Assembly (NCBI GenBank): GCA_020161405.1
Contig: JAIUOD010000002.1
Span: 434,001 to 498,000, forward strand
DNA length: 64,000 nt
Reading direction: 5' to 3'
From: Pseudomonadota bacterium
GTDB lineage: Bacteria > Pseudomonadota > Alphaproteobacteria > Caulobacterales > Aquidulcibacteraceae
Shown here: positions 3,184 through 22,364 of the stretch, piece by piece
Numbering within the stretch: position 1 is the first letter of the stretch
How the letters are laid out: each line of letters opens with the position of its first letter
Translations under genes and position numbers: made by a program
The notes under the pieces: model-generated
What the model was told of the DNA's origin: nothing
What the model saw: the letters and a program-made list of their open reading frames with translations, nothing else
Databases searched by the model: none

Positions 3184-4383
3184 ATGGCGGTTACATATTC
3201 AAAAATTGATAGAGAGATGCTTTCTGAGCTATTGAAGCAGCATTTGCTTTTTATTGCCCGTAAATCCGGCGGTAAATTGCTGCATCTAAGATTTGTTGAT
3301 CTAAGTAATTTAGATTTCGTCGGAATGGATTTCAGTGATGCTGAATTAGTTGGCGTAAATTTCGAAGGCAGTAATCTTAGCCGTACAAAGTTTGTACGTT
3401 GTAATATGAATGGTTCAAGCTTTAGAAAAGCAAATTTGCAGCATGCAAATCTTAGTAGAGCAAATTTACGCGGTGTTTTTCTTGCGGGCGCTGATTTATC
3501 CTTTGCAGATTTAACCGAGGCTGATTTTCGCGAAACTAATGTTGCCAAAACCACTACAAAAAATGGGTTTCATGTTTTGAAACATGAAAAACAATATGGT
3601 GAAGCGGATGGCGCGAATTTTACAGGTGCAACCCTTGATAGATCGCAATTTAACGGTGCAAGTGCAATTGGTGCAGTTTTTGCCGAATGTTCAATGCGCG
3701 GCGTTAAGCTTAATGGTGCACAATTAAAAAATTGTGATTTAAGTGGTGCCAACCTTGAAGGTGCGAATTTTTTTGGTGCCAAAATGGAAGGCGCATCTTT
3801 CAAAGATGCAATTCTTACCAATGCTAATTTTGGCGCTAATCCACCAAAGGCGGCTTTTTTAGAGGGGGCATTAATGTCACCTGATAATGCGGCAATGGAA
3901 GAGGCGCCATATTTACGCAGAGCAACAATAGGGCATCAAGATTGGTGGGAAAGTGGCGGTACTTCAGGCCAACACGCGGATTTAAGTGGTAAGGATTTAA
4001 GGCCACTAGCGGCATATTTCAAAAACCTAAGGCTTACTGCGCTTAAAGTTGAAGCTGCATGCGCTTGCGGTGTCGATTTTTCAGGTAGCCAGTTGCAAGG
4101 CGCAACATTTGAAGGTTCTGATTTAAGGGGTGCGATTTTTGTAAATTGCGATTTGCGTGGTGCCAATTTTGTCGATACCAAATTAACAAAGGCGGATTTT
4201 ACGGGCGCTAATCTTGATCCATTGCCGATTGCAAATGGTCAGGTAAAATTTTCTGATTTTACGAATGCTGTTTTGCGCTATGCTAAATTTAACAATACAA
4301 AGGCCCAAGAAGGGGTTTTTGTTAAAGCCGACATGCACGGAGCAACTTTTTTTGGTGCAAATCTTCGAGGCGCAAAAAGGTAG
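3184..4383 (+). CDS. Pentapeptide-repeat protein, paralog 2
   Basis: This 399-residue protein has the same layout as its neighbours. A non-repeat N-terminus contains LSELLKQHLLF and the RFVDLSNLDF transition; two pentapeptide blocks follow (about residues 45-125 and 145-230). A spacer contains HQDWWESGGTSG, and then comes the family's best conserved stretch (LTAL...ACACG...SQLQGA..DLRGA) leading into the last repeat block. No signal peptide or transmembrane helix is visible, so it is probably cytoplasmic. It lies 80 bp ahead of paralog 3 on the same strand, though each may have its own promoter. Function is unknown; the conserved non-repeat segments suggest a defined partner. Confidence 0.92.
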   Translation: MAVTYSKIDREMLSELLKQHLLFIARKSGGKLLHLRFVDLSNLDFVGMDFSDAELVGVNFEGSNLSRTKFVRCNMNGSSFRKANLQHANLSRANLRGVFLAGADLSFADLTEADFRETNVAKTTTKNGFHVLKHEKQYGEADGANFTGATLDRSQFNGASAIGAVFAECSMRGVKLNGAQLKNCDLSGANLEGANFFGAKMEGASFKDAILTNANFGANPPKAAFLEGALMSPDNAAMEEAPYLRRATIGHQDWWESGGTSGQHADLSGKDLRPLAAYFKNLRLTALKVEAACACGVDFSGSQLQGATFEGSDLRGAIFVNCDLRGANFVDTKLTKADFTGANLDPLPIANGQVKFSDFTNAVLRYAKFNNTKAQEGVFVKADMHGATFFGANLRGAKR

Positions 4384-4455: not shown

Positions 4456-4502
4456 TCGCATGAATGCAATGTCTGATTGTTAATGCTAATCATGGGGGCA
4501 TC

Positions 4503-5723
4503 ATGACTTATGCGCATGAAAAACTAGATAATGAGACCTTGCGCCAAATGATTATTTGCCACGAGAAGTTCGTCGCTTCTATGAGTGGCGGTAAACGACT
4601 TAGCTTGAAGATAGTAGATTTCAGAAATTTAAAACTCCCAAATAGAAAATTGCGCCAGTGTGAGCTTGTGGGCGCTGATTTTGAAAATGTTGATTTGACC
4701 GGCGTCGATTTTTCGGGCGCAATTTTGACGGGGGCAAATTTTAAGAATGCAAAACTTAATGGCGTAAACCTTACAGGGGCGGATGTAAGGGGGGCAATTT
4801 TTTGTGGTGCAGATTTAAGTAATGCCAATCTTAGTAAAGCTGATTTTCGTGATGCAGTAATAATGTATTATGACAAGCAAAATCAAATGAAAGAATTACG
4901 ATTTGATCGTAAGTCTCAATCAGAACGCATATCAGATTTTACAGGTGCAATGCTTGATAAAGCGGATATGTCATATTCAAAATTTAATGATGCATGTTTC
5001 AATGGCGCAATTTTAACTGATGCAAACCTTGAAGGTGCAGTTTTGACTAATTGCGACTTTGCCAATGCTAATTTAGAAAGTTCAAATTTAAAGAATGCAA
5101 ATGTAGAAGGTGCAAGTTTTGAAAATGCAAATCTTGCCAAAGTTGACCTGCGAAACGCAAATTTTACAAAAGAATTAATATCTAACGCAATCTTAAGTCC
5201 TTCTATCTTGAATGAAGAAAAAAACCAAGATATTTTGGAAATGTTGCAACAACATCAAGAATGGTGGCAATCCGGTGGAAAGCGCGGCAGGCTTGCAAAT
5301 ATTGTTGGGCTTGATTTGCGGCATTTCAAATCGCAATTACGTGGAATGCGACTAACTGGAATTAATGCAAAAGAAGCATGTGCTATTGGCGTTGTTTTTG
5401 CTGAGGCTCAATTACAGGGCGCAAATTTTAGCAATGCAGATTTGCGCGGCGCAGTATTTGTTTGCGCTGATTTAAGGGGCGTAAATTTTTCCGGTGCAAA
5501 TCTTGCCAAAGCTGACTTTAGAGGGGCCAATATTGGAACTTTGGGCGTTAGAGAAGATTTGCTAAGGGATGCATCATTCGTGAACGCACAATTAAGATTC
5601 TGTAGATTTGAAAAAACAGAGTTACAAAATGCTGATTTCACGGGTGCAGACATTGAAGGCGCAAATTTTTCAGGGGCAAGAATGCAGGGTATTAAGGCCG
5701 ATTTTATTTCTAAAGCATCGTAA
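4503..5723 (+). CDS. Pentapeptide-repeat protein, paralog 3
   Basis: This protein of about 406 residues has the same architecture as the two preceding paralogs: an N-terminal non-repeat cap with ETLRQMIICHEKF, repeats rich in ADLxx/ANFxx, the spacer HQEWWQSGG, then LTGINAKEACAIG and the QLQGANF...DLRGA block. The ATG at 4503 was preferred over one 39 bp upstream because GGGGG sits just ahead of it and because it aligns with the paralog's start. No secretion or membrane signals are seen. The role is unknown. Preservation of the cap and the HQxWW insert across three copies suggests selection on more than the helical scaffold. Confidence 0.92.
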   Translation: MTYAHEKLDNETLRQMIICHEKFVASMSGGKRLSLKIVDFRNLKLPNRKLRQCELVGADFENVDLTGVDFSGAILTGANFKNAKLNGVNLTGADVRGAIFCGADLSNANLSKADFRDAVIMYYDKQNQMKELRFDRKSQSERISDFTGAMLDKADMSYSKFNDACFNGAILTDANLEGAVLTNCDFANANLESSNLKNANVEGASFENANLAKVDLRNANFTKELISNAILSPSILNEEKNQDILEMLQQHQEWWQSGGKRGRLANIVGLDLRHFKSQLRGMRLTGINAKEACAIGVVFAEAQLQGANFSNADLRGAVFVCADLRGVNFSGANLAKADFRGANIGTLGVREDLLRDASFVNAQLRFCRFEKTELQNADFTGADIEGANFSGARMQGIKADFISKAS

Positions 5724-11688: not shown

Positions 11689-11720
11689 AAAATAGCGCCG
11701 TTTTAAAACGGCGCTATTTT
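11689..11720. terminator. Bidirectional terminator between convergent genes
   Basis: The 12-bp perfect stem AAAATAGCGCCG/CGGCGCTATTTT has A/T tracts on both sides, so it can terminate transcripts from both directions. It overlaps the last codons (KIAPF) and stop of the leftward TrmJ-like gene. Confidence 0.88.
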
Positions 11721-12692
11721 AATTTCATTATTAATATCAAGTGATAATGATTTGGTTTCATTATCTTTTATAAGAATACAAATTGCACGATTTTTTTCAA
11801 TTACCAAATCTTTGATTTGCCAGTCACTATAATTTTGATTGGCAAATTCAATGATTTTTTGACGTTTTTTCTCGTTTTCGGATTCAATAAAGCGTCGCCT
11901 TGGCCCTTCGGCTATTACGCGCATTGCCCCGCGAAATAGGTTGATTTCACTTTCTGAAAACCGTGCGCGAACCAATGAAGCGCGTAAATTTTCAATCATA
12001 TTTTCGCGCCTGTCAATCGGCCAAAAGAAGCCGCATTCATCAAGTTCGGCAATTAAAAAATCAAATAAATTGTCAAAATATTTGCGCGGTGCAACTTCTT
12101 GGGTTTCAATATCCCAACCATCGGGCATTTTATTGCCATCGCGTATCGCCCATAAATAGCAAAAAATCGCCACACTTTGCGCCAAATTCAAACTAGGGCA
12201 GCGAAAATCAGTTGGATAGGTAACAATATAGTCCGCAGATACCAAATCAATCTGATCAAGCCCTAAACGTTCATTGCCAAAAAGAACAATCGGTTTTTCA
12301 CCATTTGCCATTGCTTGCGCGATTAATTCCACTGCTTGTTGCGGGGAAATAAGGGGCTTATCCAATTGGCGTGGCGTTCCGGAGGTTGCAAAAACAATGG
12401 TTTTATCTGCCAATGCATCATTAGTTTTGGCGTGAATTTGCGCATTTTCAACCACCCATGTCGCACTTGCGGCAACCGCAGTCGCCTTTTCATTGGGCCA
12501 GCCATCACGCGGATTTACAATATGCAATTCCCCAAGCCCAAAATTCGCCATCGCCCGACAAGCCGCCCCAATATTCTCCCCCATCTGCGGCTTAATAAGC
12601 GCTATCGCAGGGGCGGGGGATGAAGCGGGTAAAGCCGCGCGGTCAGCGGCGGAGAGGATGGGTTTGTTGGTTTTTATAGCTATTTTATTCAT
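11703..12692 (-). CDS. TrmJ/SpoU-type RNA methyltransferase
   Basis: This 329-residue SPOUT-class S-adenosylmethionine-dependent 2'-O-methyltransferase is most like TrmJ, which methylates tRNA position 32. The knotted-fold motifs are clear: IALIKPQMGENIGAACRAM near the start, VLFGNERLGL in the middle and CPSLNLAQSV near the end of the catalytic domain. The remaining C-terminal region of about 130 residues (RRENMIENLRASLVRARFSE onwards) is the helical extension seen in TrmJ. No strong ribosome-binding site precedes the ATG. It is the left-hand housekeeping flank of the SIR2-STAND gene. Confidence 0.88.
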   Translation of the reverse strand: MNKIAIKTNKPILSAADRAALPASSPAPAIALIKPQMGENIGAACRAMANFGLGELHIVNPRDGWPNEKATAVAASATWVVENAQIHAKTNDALADKTIVFATSGTPRQLDKPLISPQQAVELIAQAMANGEKPIVLFGNERLGLDQIDLVSADYIVTYPTDFRCPSLNLAQSVAIFCYLWAIRDGNKMPDGWDIETQEVAPRKYFDNLFDFLIAELDECGFFWPIDRRENMIENLRASLVRARFSESEINLFRGAMRVIAEGPRRRFIESENEKKRQKIIEFANQNYSDWQIKDLVIEKNRAICILIKDNETKSLSLDINNEIKIAPF

Positions 12693-12910
12693 TTTTTGGA
12701 TAGTTACATAAAGTTTGAAAATAATCTGATGAGAAAGTTATTATTTCTAGGAAGGGGCAAATATTAATAGCAAGTGGTAGTATAAACATAGCTTGCTGAA
12801 ATTAAAGTAAAAAGTTAAAATTACAATTTCTTATTGTTGCATTTTAGTGTATTCTATTTATTTTAGATAGAATCTATAAAAATAAATAAGCGTTACCGGA
12901 GCATCAAAAT
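12693..12910. promoter_or_regulatory. Divergent promoter region of the SIR2-STAND gene
   Basis: This 218-bp AT-rich spacer separates leftward trmJ from the rightward SIR2-STAND gene. A perfect 7-bp inverted repeat, ATTCTAT (12851-12857) / ATAGAAT (12867-12873), lies 38-60 bp upstream of the start and could be an operator. GGAG at 12898-12901 is the ribosome-binding site. Confidence 0.4.
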
Positions 12911-15394
12911 ATGTCAATTGAAATCAACAAAGGCGATATAAATTTTGGGAATACTTCGACGGCCGTTTCGGCGAATGATATGAAAGAACTAATGGCTAGA
13001 ATTGCTTCTGGGGACACATTACTTTTCGCTGGTTCGGGGCTGACTGCTGAGTGCACTAATATTGATGGGGGTAAACTTCCAGATGCAAAAACTCTATCGA
13101 AAGATATATGTAAACTAGGTATGTTTGATGAAGATGAAGATTTAAGATTTGCGTCTGACTTCTTTTTAGAGAGAAATTCTCCTTCTGAATTAGTTGATTT
13201 TTTAACCAAAAAATTCACTGTAGTTAAAACCAGTGAAGCTTTAGATAGAATAATGAACATATCTTGGTTGAGAATTTATACCACAAACTACGATAATGGC
13301 ATAGAATTGTCAGCTAGAAATAATGGAAAAATCATTGAACCAATTACTATGGATGCAACTACAAAAGAACTCCTTCCAAAGAAAGACGTTTGCCTTCATA
13401 TAAATGGCTTTATCGAAAAGTTAAGCAAAGACACGCTTCAAAATAGTTTTAAATTAAGTCATTCTTCCTATATTTCTGCTGACTCATTTGTAAATTCAGA
13501 GTGGAACTATATTTTCAAAAGAGACTTGGAAAGGTGCAAGGGAATTGTATTCATCGGGTATTCTTTATACGATATTGAGATTCAAAAGATTTTGTTTGAA
13601 AATCCAGAATTTCACAATAAAACTTATTTTATAACAAGAGAAGATATAGACGAAAAGTCCGCTTATTTATTTTCCAAGTTTGGCAAAGCGATACGAATTG
13701 GACGTGATAATTTTGCTGAGCAATTGCAATTCAGCGTAATGCAAAATGACGACAAAAGGTATGCACTCAGTGCATTTCAACGATATACTGTTTCAAACGA
13801 TGAAAAAGAGATTAGAGATTTAGACATAGACCGAATGCTGATGTCTGGTCATGTTTCTCAAGAATATGTAGATACTGCAGTATTGGGCAATCCTAGTAAA
13901 CCAATATTAATTAAGCGGCATTGCCTAGACTCAATTCTGAGTTTTTCAAAATCCAATAGACACATTATTGTAATTTCGGAATTTGGTAATGGAAAGTCAA
14001 TAGTATTAAATGAAATAAAGCCAGTTCTGGAAACAAACGGAATTGAAGTATATGAAATTGCTGATTCAATGGGAGATTTTGTTTCAGATATAGATTTTAT
14101 TGTTAGTCAGAAAAAGAGGTCCGTAATAATTTTAGAAAATTACGACGAATACTTAGAGGTTTTGAGATATGTGAGCGATTTAAAGCCTGAAAACTTATGT
14201 CTAATTGTTTCGGCAAGAACTGGCTCTCATGAAAAACATAAGACAAAGCTCGAAGAATTGAATTTTATTGCGAACGAAATAAATGTTGACATAATGACAG
14301 ATGATGAAATTAGTTATTTCATTAGAATGGTTGATAATTTGGGGTTGTGGGGCGATCTCGCCAGTGAAGATAGTCGAAAAAAAATAGAAGTTGTTCGGAA
14401 TGACAACAAATCACAGGTTTCTCTTAACTTACTTGGGTTATTAAAATCTCCACAAATCAAAGAAAGAATCCGTAATGCTGTTGGCCCATTACTTGATAAA
14501 AGCGAGTTTAAGGATACGATTTTTGCTATTTGTTTTTTGACTTCATTAGGAATTATTCCTGATTGCAGTTTAGTGTCTGAAGTTGCGCAGAATAACGAAG
14601 TATTTTCAAATAATTTGAGAAATAATGACAATTTTAGGCAGCTTTTCAAGATGGAACGAAACAAAGTGCTATCCCGTTCAGCGCCTTTTTGTTTAACCCT
14701 ATTGCGTGAGCAGTTTTCCCCAATTTATATTATTACTCAACTTCAGAAAATCGCTAAGCTTTATTCTAATAGGACATTTAGGGATGTTAGACAAAATAAG
14801 ATTTTTAAGGCAACTCTTCGTTTTTCTTCGGTGGAGACCATTTTACCTAGTGAAAATAAGCGCAATTATCTCCAGAGACATTATGAAGAATTAAAAATTT
14901 CTGTGCCTTGGCTTATCCATGACCCCCATTATTGGCTTCAATATGGGATGTCACAAATAATTTTTCGCGATTATAACAAAGCACAGGTGTACTTTGACAA
15001 TGCGTATTCTTTTGCGCACAAGAAGCGGAGTTATCATACTAATAATATAGATACACAACAAGCTCGGCTGTTTTTTTTGCAGGCAATCGACTCAGTAGAA
15101 AATAATAAGATTTTCGATTTTTTTAAAAGCGGTCATAATTTGTTGCTCGGAATTTCAAATGATTTCTATAAGTTTAAACAGTTCGAATATTACTCTGATT
15201 TCTTTAAATCTAAATTTAATTCCCTTTCTAAGGGAAACAAGAAACATTTCAAAAACATGGTTTACGAGGCTAAAAAAGTAGTAGAGAGTTATATCAATCA
15301 AGGCGAGCCTACCTATGCAGAAAGCAGTTTGTTAGCACGCGCTGAAAATGATTTGATTGGAATTATGGATTCTATTGTCGCTAATCATGAATAA
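12911..15394 (+). CDS. SIR2-domain STAND-like NTPase, probable anti-phage defence protein
   Basis: This 827-residue protein has an N-terminal SIR2-like NADase domain (about residues 25-275) and a P-loop NTPase domain (about 335-500). SIR2 signatures are FAGSG (39-43), TTNYD (124-128), the histidine-containing LHINGF (162-167) and FIGYSLYD (214-221), so the NAD-binding and catalytic residues appear intact. The NTPase has Walker A SEFGNGKS (356-363), a Walker-B-like SVIILENYDEY (404-414) and SARTGS. The C-terminal 300 residues show no named motif and are the likely sensor. Known SIR2-STAND proteins oligomerise on sensing phage and deplete NAD; that role is inferred here. It stands alone between trmJ and icd, is visibly AT-rich and uses AGA arginine codons often, consistent with transfer. 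Confidence 0.85.
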   Translation: MSIEINKGDINFGNTSTAVSANDMKELMARIASGDTLLFAGSGLTAECTNIDGGKLPDAKTLSKDICKLGMFDEDEDLRFASDFFLERNSPSELVDFLTKKFTVVKTSEALDRIMNISWLRIYTTNYDNGIELSARNNGKIIEPITMDATTKELLPKKDVCLHINGFIEKLSKDTLQNSFKLSHSSYISADSFVNSEWNYIFKRDLERCKGIVFIGYSLYDIEIQKILFENPEFHNKTYFITREDIDEKSAYLFSKFGKAIRIGRDNFAEQLQFSVMQNDDKRYALSAFQRYTVSNDEKEIRDLDIDRMLMSGHVSQEYVDTAVLGNPSKPILIKRHCLDSILSFSKSNRHIIVISEFGNGKSIVLNEIKPVLETNGIEVYEIADSMGDFVSDIDFIVSQKKRSVIILENYDEYLEVLRYVSDLKPENLCLIVSARTGSHEKHKTKLEELNFIANEINVDIMTDDEISYFIRMVDNLGLWGDLASEDSRKKIEVVRNDNKSQVSLNLLGLLKSPQIKERIRNAVGPLLDKSEFKDTIFAICFLTSLGIIPDCSLVSEVAQNNEVFSNNLRNNDNFRQLFKMERNKVLSRSAPFCLTLLREQFSPIYIITQLQKIAKLYSNRTFRDVRQNKIFKATLRFSSVETILPSENKRNYLQRHYEELKISVPWLIHDPHYWLQYGMSQIIFRDYNKAQVYFDNAYSFAHKKRSYHTNNIDTQQARLFFLQAIDSVENNKIFDFFKSGHNLLLGISNDFYKFKQFEYYSDFFKSKFNSLSKGNKKHFKNMVYEAKKVVESYINQGEPTYAESSLLARAENDLIGIMDSIVANHE

Positions 15395-15579
15395 AGCGAT
15401 TTATATCGTTTCTACATTTGTAGGTGAGCATAGATTTCATTTATTTTTTTATATAGTTAGGCACGCGTATAATTTCATCATCCCAAAGTCGCACATAAAA
15501 AACCATAATTCCCCCTAGATTTTCCCACCATAATCGCTAAACAGGGGCAAATAGATTTTGGTTTAGGAAAGGCTTGAAA

Positions 15580-16794
15580 ATGGCTAAAATTAAAGTTGCA
15601 AATCCTGTTGTGGATCTTGATGGCGATGAAATGACACGCATCATCTGGAAGATGATTAAAGAATATTTGATTTTGCCATATTTAGATTTGGAAATCGAAT
15701 ATTATGACCTTTCGGTTGAAAACCGCGATGCAACCAATGACCAAGTGACAATTGATGCAGCACACGCAATTCAAAAGCACAATGTTGGTATCAAATGCGC
15801 AACTATCACACCTGATGAAGCGCGCGTTGAAGAATTCAAATTGAAAAAAATGTGGAAATCACCAAATGGCACAATTCGCAATATTTTGGGCGGTGTGGTT
15901 TTCCGTGAACCAATCATTTGCCAAAATGTACCGCGTTTGGTTCCTGGTTGGACTGCGCCAATCGTTGTTGGTCGTCATGCTTTTGGTGACCAATATAAAG
16001 CGACTGATTTCAAAGTTCCGTCTGCTGGTAAACTTACAATGAAATTCACCCCTGATGATGGCGGCGAAGAAATTGAATATGAAGTTTTCCAATATCCTGG
16101 CGCCGGTGTCGCAATGGGTATGTATAATCTTGATGAATCAATTCGCGAATTTGCGCGCGCATCAATGAATTATGGTCTATTACGTGGTTGGCCGGTTTAT
16201 TTATCAACTAAAAACACAATCCTAAAAGCCTATGATGGCCGCTTCAAAGACATCTTCCAAGAAGTTTATGACACAGAATTTAAAGCTGCATTTGCTGAAA
16301 AGAAAATTGTTTATGAACACCGCTTGATTGACGATTTGGTGGCATCTGCGCTTAAATGGTCGGGCAAATTTATCTGGGCGTGCAAAAACTATGATGGTGA
16401 TGTTCAATCAGACATGGTTGCACAGGGCTTTGGTTCTTTGGGCCTAATGACATCTGTTCTTATGACCCCAGATGGCAAAACCATCGAAGCAGAAGCGGCG
16501 CATGGCACAGTAACCCGCCACTATCGCCAACACCAAAAAGGCGAAAGCACTTCTACTAACTCAATCGCATCAATCTTTGCTTGGACCCGTGGTCTTGCGC
16601 ATCGTGCGAAATTGGATGGCAATGAAGAATTGGCGAAATTCTCTGCTACTTTGGAAAAAGTTGTGGTTGATACCGTTGAATCTGGCTTCATGACCAAAGA
16701 TTTGGCATTGCTTGTAGGTGACGAACAAGCATGGTTAACCACTGAAGGCTTCTTGAAAAAAGTTGCTGAAAACTTTGAAAAAGCGATGGCGTAA
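15580..16794 (+). CDS. icd: NADP-dependent isocitrate dehydrogenase
   Basis: This cytoplasmic TCA-cycle enzyme makes 2-oxoglutarate, CO2 and NADPH from isocitrate. The 404-residue sequence is of the eukaryote-like homodimeric class, with [12 protein letters not shown] near the N-terminus, [12 protein letters not shown] in the substrate loop, and the NADP-binding [12 protein letters not shown]. The ATG at 15580 follows AGGAAAGG; a TTG two codons earlier is less likely. A perfect TATAAT lies about 110 bp upstream at 15468-15473, but no good -35 element was found. A terminator follows directly. Confidence 0.97.
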
Positions 16795-18989: not shown

Positions 18990-19019
18990 TGTTATTAATT
19001 ATACGTGTGGAGTTTGGAC

Positions 19020-20120
19020 ATGCTCAATGCGTCGGTTATGAATCGCGAAAGTTATAGCGATAGCAAATTTATAAATGCGGCAATGGGCATTGATACATGG
19101 TGCAATGCCCTAAATGAATTTGCAAACCACACACATTCATCACGCGCGCAATTGGTTGGTATAGATAAGAATAAAAATTTGGTTTTTCATTCGGTAACTG
19201 AATTACCAATGCAGGCGCGCGTTAATTTTACCCAAATTGACGGCAATAACCCAAAAATTAACACCCGCCTTATGGCGTCAAAAAAATATGCGCCAATGCA
19301 AGTTGTTGGCGACTTTGAATATGAAGAAATAAAGCAAACCCAAATCAACCAAGATTATCATGAATATTGCGAACGTTGGGAAATGCAATATGGTTGCCAA
19401 ACTAATCTAATCAAGGATAGTGAATTTACCTTTCTTCTTATGGCATTGCGTAACCGAAGGGATGGCATGTCAACACCTGAAACCTACGCAAGCTTTCAAG
19501 AAATGGCAAATGAAGTAAGAATTGCTGTAAATATGGCGCGCCAACTTGAAAATCAGGGGCACATGCTTTTGGCAAATTCACTTGATACAATGTCTATAAG
19601 TGCCTTTATTTGTAACTCAAATGGGGAGGTTTGTGCAAAAACTAAAAGCGCAGAAAATGCAATTCTTGAAAACCAAATTATTGATGTCAAAAATGGTCGT
19701 TTAATTGCAAAATCAAAAGAAGACCAAAAAAAACTTGATGACGCAATTGCAAAGGCGATTAAATTTGGCTCGCAAAGTTCAATTTGCCTTAAAGGTGATA
19801 ATATTGGCAATTTACTATTATTAGAGATAAATTTGCTTCCTGCTTTGGGGTGGAATTTTAATTTCTTCCCAAAAATCATCATAAAAATTCGTGATAAATA
19901 TAATAAAAATATATTATCTCTTTTACAAAGCGCCTTTGATTTAACCCACGCAGAGGCGCAGGTGGCAATAATGTTTGCCAATGGAAACACGCGCGAATTC
20001 ATCGCTAATGAGCGTAATTCAAGCCTACAAACTGTTCGAACACAATTAAAGCGCATCTTTGATAAAATGGATATTCACCGCGAAGCCGAACTTGCCGCAA
20101 AGCTTGCAATTTTCATGTAA
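19020..20120 (+). CDS. LuxR-family transcriptional regulator
   Basis: This DNA-binding regulator has about 366 residues. The C-terminal 60 residues form a LuxR/GerE helix-turn-helix (LTHAEAQVAIMFANG then NSSLQTVRTQLKRIFDKM). The N-terminal 300 residues show no known sensor signature and no membrane segment. The ATG at 19020 is preferred because GGAG lies seven bases upstream; an upstream in-frame GTG would place that site inside the gene. The 12-bp inverted repeat just upstream is a plausible binding site. Neighbouring secreted-protein genes are natural candidate targets, but this is inference. Confidence 0.88.
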   Translation: MLNASVMNRESYSDSKFINAAMGIDTWCNALNEFANHTHSSRAQLVGIDKNKNLVFHSVTELPMQARVNFTQIDGNNPKINTRLMASKKYAPMQVVGDFEYEEIKQTQINQDYHEYCERWEMQYGCQTNLIKDSEFTFLLMALRNRRDGMSTPETYASFQEMANEVRIAVNMARQLENQGHMLLANSLDTMSISAFICNSNGEVCAKTKSAENAILENQIIDVKNGRLIAKSKEDQKKLDDAIAKAIKFGSQSSICLKGDNIGNLLLLEINLLPALGWNFNFFPKIIIKIRDKYNKNILSLLQSAFDLTHAEAQVAIMFANGNTREFIANERNSSLQTVRTQLKRIFDKMDIHREAELAAKLAIFM

Positions 20121-21269: not shown

Positions 21270-22364
21270 ATGCCCCTTAGAAATTGGTTCATAGCATTTA
21301 TTTTTGCATCTTTTTTTGCAATTAATTTTGCCAATGCGCAAAATATTGTGCCGATTAAAGATAATGAATTACCATCATTTAAGTTGAACGCGTCAATTAG
21401 TGGCACGGTTAAAACCAATAATGAATATAGCGAATATCAATGGCCTGGTATTTATTTTGTTTCCAAATTTAGGGGTACAGAAATTGGTTTTAAATTTGAT
21501 GATAAACGCAATAAATTCAAAATTTCCATCGATAATAAGGAAATTGGGCAAATTGTTACCACTGGCGCAAATTCATTTAAAGTAATTGGACTTTCGAACA
21601 CTAATCATCAAATTAGGATTGATAAAATATCCGAATCTTTGGGGCATTCTGGCCGTTTTTATGGCTTTTTTTCTGGATATAATTTTGCTTCTAAACCGCT
21701 TTCTAAAAAGCGAAAAATTGAAATAATTGGCGATTCCTATAGCGTTGGCTATGGGAATCTTTCTTTGTCACATAAATGTAGCCGTGAACAATTGTTTGAT
21801 CTTACAGATAATTCAAAATCTTATGGGGTTTTGATGGCAAATGCGTTTGATGCTGATTATCAAATCAATGCCTATTCTGGAATTGGGATTGTTCGCAATT
21901 ATAATAATGCAATGTTCGGTAAACCTATAGGCTATTTTTATGGCAAAAGTATTTTTGATGCCAAAAAAAATATAGAAGAAAATGATTTCCATCCTAATAT
22001 TATAAATCTCCTTTTGGGAACAAATGATTTTTCAACCAAAATCAAACCCGACGAAAAATGGAAAAATATCGATGAATTAAAGGTTGATTATGTAAAAACT
22101 TATGCTGAATTCATAAACGAATTGCGTCGTAATAATCATAATGCTTTGATTTTAATCAGTATAAATATTGATGCCAATAAAAACCATATGGCGGCATATA
22201 AGGATTTGGAAAAATTATTTTCAAATCGCGATAAAAAAATAAAATTTGTAATATTACCTGCCACAAAAAAATCGGGCTGCGATTGGCACCCCGATTTATA
22301 TGACCATGCCGCAATGGCACAGATTTTGATTTCCACGGTAAAAGACTTAGGTTTCAAATTCTAA
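21270..22364 (+). CDS. Secreted SGNH/GDSL hydrolase, CE2-like esterase
   Basis: This is an exported esterase of 364 residues. A signal peptide ends near ANA-QN. The N-terminal module (about 30-145) looks like the beta-jelly-roll of carbohydrate esterase family 2, and the catalytic module starts EIIGDSYSVGYG with the nucleophile Ser156. GTND and the late DWHPD supply the remaining conserved positions, including the catalytic His/Asp. CE2 enzymes remove acetyl groups from polysaccharides; the actual substrate here is unknown. Confidence 0.85.
   Translation: MPLRNWFIAFIFASFFAINFANAQNIVPIKDNELPSFKLNASISGTVKTNNEYSEYQWPGIYFVSKFRGTEIGFKFDDKRNKFKISIDNKEIGQIVTTGANSFKVIGLSNTNHQIRIDKISESLGHSGRFYGFFSGYNFASKPLSKKRKIEIIGDSYSVGYGNLSLSHKCSREQLFDLTDNSKSYGVLMANAFDADYQINAYSGIGIVRNYNNAMFGKPIGYFYGKSIFDAKKNIEENDFHPNIINLLLGTNDFSTKIKPDEKWKNIDELKVDYVKTYAEFINELRRNNHNALILISINIDANKNHMAAYKDLEKLFSNRDKKIKFVILPATKKSGCDWHPDLYDHAAMAQILISTVKDLGFKF

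Follow-up and report, generated by a model that had tools for sequence, protein, structure and literature searches.

Avs5 proteins protect bacteria from phages, hydrolyse NAD+ (nicotinamide adenine dinucleotide) and are triggered, in three of their clades, by the phage protein JADA, as set out in PMC12931631; a review repeats the JADA account (PMC13282480). According to PMC12931631, the Escherichia fergusonii protein EfAvs5 (AVAST type 5; Protein Data Bank (PDB) entry 9jap) belongs to clade 3, and PaAvs5-1 needs N110, D112, its Walker A motif and its C-terminus. Avs5 filaments are described in PMC12700824 as stacked homodimers that are induced upon phage infection and are apparently a prerequisite for activity. 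Here we describe an avs5-type gene in a 64,000-nucleotide stretch of DNA (the window; contig JAIUOD010000002.1, positions 434,001 to 498,000) from an alphaproteobacterium of the Aquidulcibacteraceae. Its product is a full-length homologue of EfAvs5 that likely, with a probability of roughly 0.85, protects its host from phages by NAD+ hydrolysis after predicted binding of a phage protein to its C-terminal domain, a defence role that we infer from homology. The gene and its parts are as follows.

12911..15394, + strand: avs5-type gene (SIR2-STAND), 827 codons plus stop; matches 9jap EfAvs5 at E 4.9e-130 over residues 17-785
12898..12901, + strand: GGAG, possible ribosome binding site 9 nucleotides 5' of the ATG, read by eye
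12971..13765, + strand: SIR2 NADase-like domain, residues 21-285, placed from PF13289, conservation over 97 homologues and the predicted model
13766..13915, + strand: linker, residues 286-335, placed from model and alignment
13916..14305, + strand: STAND P-loop NTPase core, residues 336-465, placed from a weak PF25199 match, conservation and model
14408..15391, + strand: helical domain at the C-terminus and predicted sensor, residues 500-827, the homologue of EfAvs5 507-845
14873..15070, + strand: best-conserved C-terminal stretch, residues 655-720 (DPHYWLQYGM ... YHTNNIDTQQAR), mean homologue identity 56%

The open reading frame (ORF) has an ATG start and encodes 827 residues, and a protein search found 192 homologues of its product at E <= 0.001; therefore it is not a chance ORF. 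In a PDB sequence search the protein matched chain 9jap_A, from an entry titled 'Helical structure of EfAvs5(SIR2-STAND)', with the E value and span given above, and a profile of 98 family sequences matched the same chain at E 7.7e-251; nine further solved sequences reached E <= 1.2e-8 (KomC and related NADases, and ThsA), each aligning with the SIR2 part only. An E. coli plasmid protein (L088) that is nearly identical to 9jap across all its 849 residues was used as a stand-in for EfAvs5 in the alignments and the tree, and 272 of the 821 residues aligned between it and the window protein are identical. Homology to EfAvs5 extends over the full length and includes domain order, the NG motif, the Walker A motif and R436. 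The earlier note, made from the raw sequence, had seen no known motif in the last 300 or so residues; this point has to be revised, since residues 500-827 are the homologue of the EfAvs5 C-terminal domain. The two C-terminal domains superpose at 2.2 Å over 325 residues.

Other features of the protein are also those of an Avs5. The N-terminal effector domain matches SIR2_2 (PF13289) at 39 bits, above the cut-off of 24.5, and its fold agrees; it contains the catalytic residues (GxGxx, TTNxD, and HG or NG) that PMC12931631 gives as required, namely G41xG43, T124-T125-N126, D128 and N165-G166, as well as G216-Y217-S218 and D221. The central STAND P-loop NTPase has a Walker A motif (FGNGKS, 358-363), an acid in a Walker B-like motif (VIILE409) and the conserved R436, the C-terminal helical domain is homologous to that of a characterised Avs5, and by sequence the protein falls in a 37-row group with support 100 that includes L088. 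All motifs quoted on first inspection are in the translation (FAGSG 39-43, TTNYD 124-128, LHINGF 162-167, GYSLYD 216-221, SEFGNGKS 356-363 and SVIILENYDEY 404-414). Judged from its sequence, the window protein is an EfAvs5-type immune receptor that had been spotted correctly, with the C-terminal domain now assigned, and this is a mostly ordinary result.

Several observations weigh against this assignment. Identity to EfAvs5, which comes from another host lineage, is only 33%, and a Foldseek comparison of the whole model with 9jap gave a template modelling score of 0.39 and a root-mean-square deviation (rmsd) of 22.6 Å, which means that the domain arrangement in the model differs from that in the filament. 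The NTPase region matches nSTAND_NTPase5 (PF25199) weakly (17.5 bits, cut-off 34), and nSTAND3 (PF20720), reported for the Avs5 proteins of PMC12931631, was not found in the window protein by Pfam. Position 409 of the Walker B motif is Glu instead of the Asp found in EfAvs5 and in 96 of 97 aligned homologues, and S42 and T45 of the glycine loop recur in only 25 and 2 of these 97. Finally, PADLOC and NCBIfam give the Avs5 name neither to the window protein nor to six of its homologues. The search of defence-system profiles suggested in the earlier note returned, from PADLOC, mostly SIR2 similarity of the ThsA type, with three weaker matches besides (E 0.005-0.008) and no Avs5 name; NCBIfam gave no family for the window protein at E <= 0.1, and the six homologues presented the same PADLOC picture and no NCBIfam match above cut-off. 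Because none of these seven proteins gives an Avs5 match there, the two collections do not name the EfAvs5 branch.

Conservation was scored in an alignment of 97 of the 192 homologues, taken from among the 120 listed; it omits the database copy of the window protein and the majority of the near-identical E. coli copies. N126 and D128 are each found in 96 of the 97 sequences, as is N165-G166, and GYS and D221 are found in all of them; GxG, TTN, D128 and N165-G166 are all kept in the window protein, in agreement with the intact NADase pocket first proposed, and nothing in the sequence indicates a dead one. For the P-loop NTPase, the proposal stands on K362 (Lys in 96/97), G361 and R436 (both 97/97), the Pfam match being the part that falls short of its cut-off. 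The LHINGF of the window protein has NG where sirtuins have HG; according to PMC12931631, the two forms are about equally common in homologues of Avs5, and PaAvs5-1 also has NG. The occurrence of NG in place of HG in 96 of 97 homologues argues against a housekeeping or regulatory NAD-dependent enzyme, a deacylase-like sirtuin with an NTPase switch and no immune role; the full-length EfAvs5 match and the absence of the gene from the other 60 relatives searched, unlike a housekeeping gene, also argue against it, and we regard such an enzyme as highly improbable.

The departures at E409 and T45 would also fit an avs5 gene that was acquired horizontally and is now silent or decaying. The gene is the lone copy in its genus, and broken copies do occur in the family, where the gene is split over two frames or several pieces in L043, L049, L078 and the plasmid hits H7, H10 and H13. 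In the window, however, the ORF is intact at the family length and without internal stops, the catalytic, P-loop and C-terminal residues are kept, and Glu is also the Walker B acid of PaAvs5-1 (IIFIE; PMC12931631), so that decay seems very improbable to us and a working receptor of the EfAvs5 type is preferred.

Among the regions compared, 14873-15070 (residues 655-720, within the supposed sensor) is the best conserved and the last 37 residues are the least. Mean homologue identity to the window protein is 43% for the SIR2 domain, 33% each for linker and NTPase, 42% for residues 601-790, 56% for residues 655-720 and 16% for the last 37 residues, of which 9/37 are identical to EfAvs5. Within the EfAvs5 branch, conservation of the C-terminal core is roughly on a par with that of the enzyme. 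Over the Avs5 set of PMC12931631 the C-terminus is poorly conserved, and PaAvs5-1 no longer gives immunity once its last helices are deleted. Specificity may be located in the last helices of the window protein.

More distant systems share less with the window protein. PaAvs5-1 and the AVAST5 filament 9nc9 represent other Avs5 lineages; 9nc9 is about 14-16% identical to the window protein and gave no phmmer match at E <= 1. The earlier note had named both the Avs and the DSR families, of which the first holds (as Avs5, EfAvs5 branch) and the second does not. DSR2 membership was considered and rejected: it calls for a full-length relationship, and the PDB, which includes DSR2, yielded no DSR2 chain matching the 98-sequence profile at E <= 0.1, while most listed structure matches cover about 245-250 residues of SIR2 and the longer ones have an rmsd of at least 15 Å. 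DSR2 is not known to have a STAND P-loop. ThsA of the Thoeris system consists of SIR2 and a SLOG C-terminus and works with a ThsB partner. This class was rejected as well, since the PADLOC ThsA models match residues 24-229 only, that is, the SIR2 part, residues 500-827 match EfAvs5 and are not of SLOG type, and PADLOC found no ThsB match in 10 neighbouring ORFs. Human SAMD9 is 10% identical to the window protein, too little to claim a common function.

Homology suggests that the window protein works as other Avs5 proteins do, and we infer each step for it on that basis. What the analysis established is the order of its domains, the intact state of its motifs, its homology over the full length, its predicted fold and its patchy distribution. 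In the resting state, the C-terminal domain packed on the NTPase would keep the protein off, as in Avs5 models (PMC12931631). A phage protein would then bind the C-terminal domain, and nucleotide binding at the P-loop would lead to filaments in which SIR2 domains are brought together; filaments have been solved for the homologues 9jap, which is helical, and 9nc9, and a filament of the window protein is predicted by homology. The SIR2 domains would finally hydrolyse NAD+ through N126, D128 and the NG motif N165-G166, as Avs5 mutants suggest (PMC12931631), and infection would stall.

The relationships of the protein were analysed in a quick tree of the window and 61 loci (56 of 64 genome loci, 4 plasmid loci and the G065 locus), the 8 genome loci without a 700-residue frame having been dropped. 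Support is given as SH-aLRT (Shimodaira-Hasegawa-like approximate likelihood ratio test) values, the long rows, L087 and L085 among them, are uncertain, and of Avs5 clades 1 to 4 the tree has a reference for clade 3, through L088. The window protein joins proteins of Alteromonadaceae, Stutzerimonas, Marinobacter, Pseudoalteromonas and Vibrio with support 94, and this join sits within the 37-row group in which the EfAvs5 stand-in is found. Outside that group are the alphaproteobacterial rows that have names (Sphingomonas, Brevundimonas, Devosia, Paracoccus, Ruegeria, Methylopila and a Rhodobacteraceae).

The surroundings of the gene are as follows; the last row gives coordinates within the loci named.

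11703..12692, - strand: left flank, TrmJ/YjtD-type RNA methyltransferase (PF00588; best NCBIfam match TIGR00050 at 123.4 bits, under the 167.15 cut-off)
15574..16794, + strand: right flank, icd, NADP-isocitrate dehydrogenase (765 bits, cut-off 335)
12674..15481, no strand: variable spot between trmJ and icd, where the DNA does not match that of G003, the closest congener, from blastn and a junction alignment with L018
L018 1449-2349; L019 1723-4652; L020 1958-3502: other cargo in the trmJ-icd spot of three congeners

As first described, the gene stands alone between a divergent TrmJ/YjtD-type gene and icd. A search of 61 relatives at E <= 0.001 found a match in the gene's own genome and in none of the other 60. 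Among 60 genomes of the family a full match was again confined to its own genome, the other 59 yielding one SIR2-domain match of 22% (G065), and a search of 299 genomes of the order found distant relatives (23-25%) in two besides its own at E <= 1e-20. Conserved vertical inheritance, which, like a mutated pocket, had been named as what would speak against a single-gene SIR2-STAND defence protein, is not what these genomes display, and such a protein remains the best reading. In the genus, trmJ and icd adjoin in four of five genomes and lie on different contigs in the fifth (G001). DNA matching G003 runs up to 12673 and resumes from 15482, and the comparison of this spot among relatives found avs5 in the window genome and other cargo in three congeners: an unrelated, unassigned gene of 220 residues in G003, in G004, a terminase-small-like gene together with three ORFs of about 200 residues (two with DUF4234 under cut-off), and in G002, two ORFs, DUF4234-like and terminase-small-like, with possibly a third small one, so that G002 and G004 share related cargo. 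No empty site was seen in the genus genomes compared. The patchy distribution fits horizontal acquisition, and the locus fits horizontal insertion at a variable trmJ-icd spot. A search for a target-site duplication found only the 11-bp direct repeat AGGGGCAAATA, away from the insertion boundaries; its copies flank the gene at 12753-12763 and 15543-15553, and G003 also has the right one, conserved, upstream of icd.

The gene was also described as AT-rich and AGA-rich, and this is so: its guanine plus cytosine (GC) content is 33.6% against 41.5% pooled for 19 other window ORFs, chosen by the author, and AGA and AGG together account for 23 of its 40 Arg codons, compared with 70 of 430 in those ORFs. 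Speaking against a foreign composition, ORF 21270-22364 has an even lower GC content (31.7%) and about half of the Arg codons of ORFs 3184-4383 and 4464-5723 are AGA or AGG; composition alone is therefore no proof of foreign origin.

Homologues occur in mobile settings. Plasmid records match in 22 cases, and in 17 the match covers 80% or more of the protein; the four plasmid regions inspected have transposases, toxin-antitoxin genes and integrases nearby in a varying mix; no match was found in phage records (tblastn), and no stretch of viral contigs matched the patterns searched. A survey of 118 proteins around 22 chromosomal loci, chosen by the author and without a control set, found seven phage-type integrases and, at PADLOC E <= 1e-10 and among the families listed (25 of 95 for PADLOC, 25 of 113 for Pfam), single GajB, reverse-transcriptase and PDC-S proteins and three mad3. 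Presence on conjugative plasmids and near integrases and transposases implies frequent meetings with other mobile elements, as would suit a SIR2-STAND receptor that likewise depletes NAD+ but acts mainly against plasmids or other mobile DNA entering the cell. EfAvs5 and PaAvs5-1, -2 and -3, the relatives that are characterised best, act on phages (PMC12931631), and this target range appears improbable beside protection from phages.

Some homologues lie beside integron-like sites. Inverted repeats of the form TAACAA...[AG]CGTTA (attC-like sites) flank 7 of 61 loci, in nine flanks, each with the site oriented as the gene is; of 10000 strand-windows taken from loci that gave no flank hit, 4 had such a site. 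The sites start at these positions of the loci.

L023: 983
L024 (Marinobacter): 9878 and 12464
L026: 12441
L028 (Marinomonas): 12494
L046 (Sulfurimonas): 9847 and 12440
L055 (Shewanella): 12497
L060: 9825

An earlier, stricter scan gave two loci only, after which the pattern was widened and later fixed, so that it was tuned on known cases; at score >= 20 the widened scan picked out 5 of 124 family flanks and 9 of 3660 windows drawn at random from every locus, those with integrons among them. The sites were called by pattern, and an automatic attC alignment did not follow structure. An integron integrase above the NCBIfam cut-off lies within 5 kb in L024, L046 and L055; L026 and L028 had no such match among the proteins compared in the neighbour survey, which excluded L023 and L060. 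The L055 site has a strong single-stranded DNA fold (z -4.7) and the L024 site a weaker one (z -2.3, 8 of 200 shuffles equally good), the folded stretch of L046 has no hairpin but ended before the right half of the site, and Rfam gave no hits at gathering score for L024, L046 and L055. The L028 and L055 proteins are near-identical (end branches 0.03 and 0.04) in hosts of different families, and three of the five rows in the sister group of the window protein (L023, L024 and L026) are attC-flanked.

Avs5-type receptors appear to travel as integron cassettes. We propose only tentatively, and with more doubt than confidence, that EfAvs5-branch genes spread between distant bacteria in this way and that the window gene is a settled descendant in a trmJ-icd spot that holds other cargo in relatives. 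A present-day cassette was rejected for the window gene: its genome has no integron integrase above cut-off, weaker matches being found in all 14 control genomes too, and its flanks have no attC-like site. A lone GTTAGGC, like an integron core, lies at 15456-15462, close to the right boundary on its left side; it has no partner site and does not form a hairpin (z -0.29). A search of a limited literature collection found no paper linking Avs5 with an integron, which is no proof of novelty; papers on defence genes in integrons exist.

Two further observations concern the start of the gene and its surroundings. The database copy of the protein (P0001, 804 residues) starts 23 residues later, which concerns region 12911-12980; the upstream ATG, preceded by GGAG, fits homologue length better, and residues 1-17 have low confidence in the predicted model. 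No partner gene is apparent, the 10 neighbouring ORFs giving one weak PADLOC match, to CARF (E 1.5e-4), at residues 312-362 of a LuxR-type regulator (19005-20120). Because this is also where the Pfam GerE helix-turn-helix matches, the regulator is probably not a defence gene.

The integron link, if true, explains how such receptors cross bacterial orders. The conserved C-terminal core and the barely conserved last 37 residues provide a concrete place to look for phage specificity. The EfAvs5 branch is extended to a new host lineage by an intact, testable protein that is related over its full length to a solved structure.
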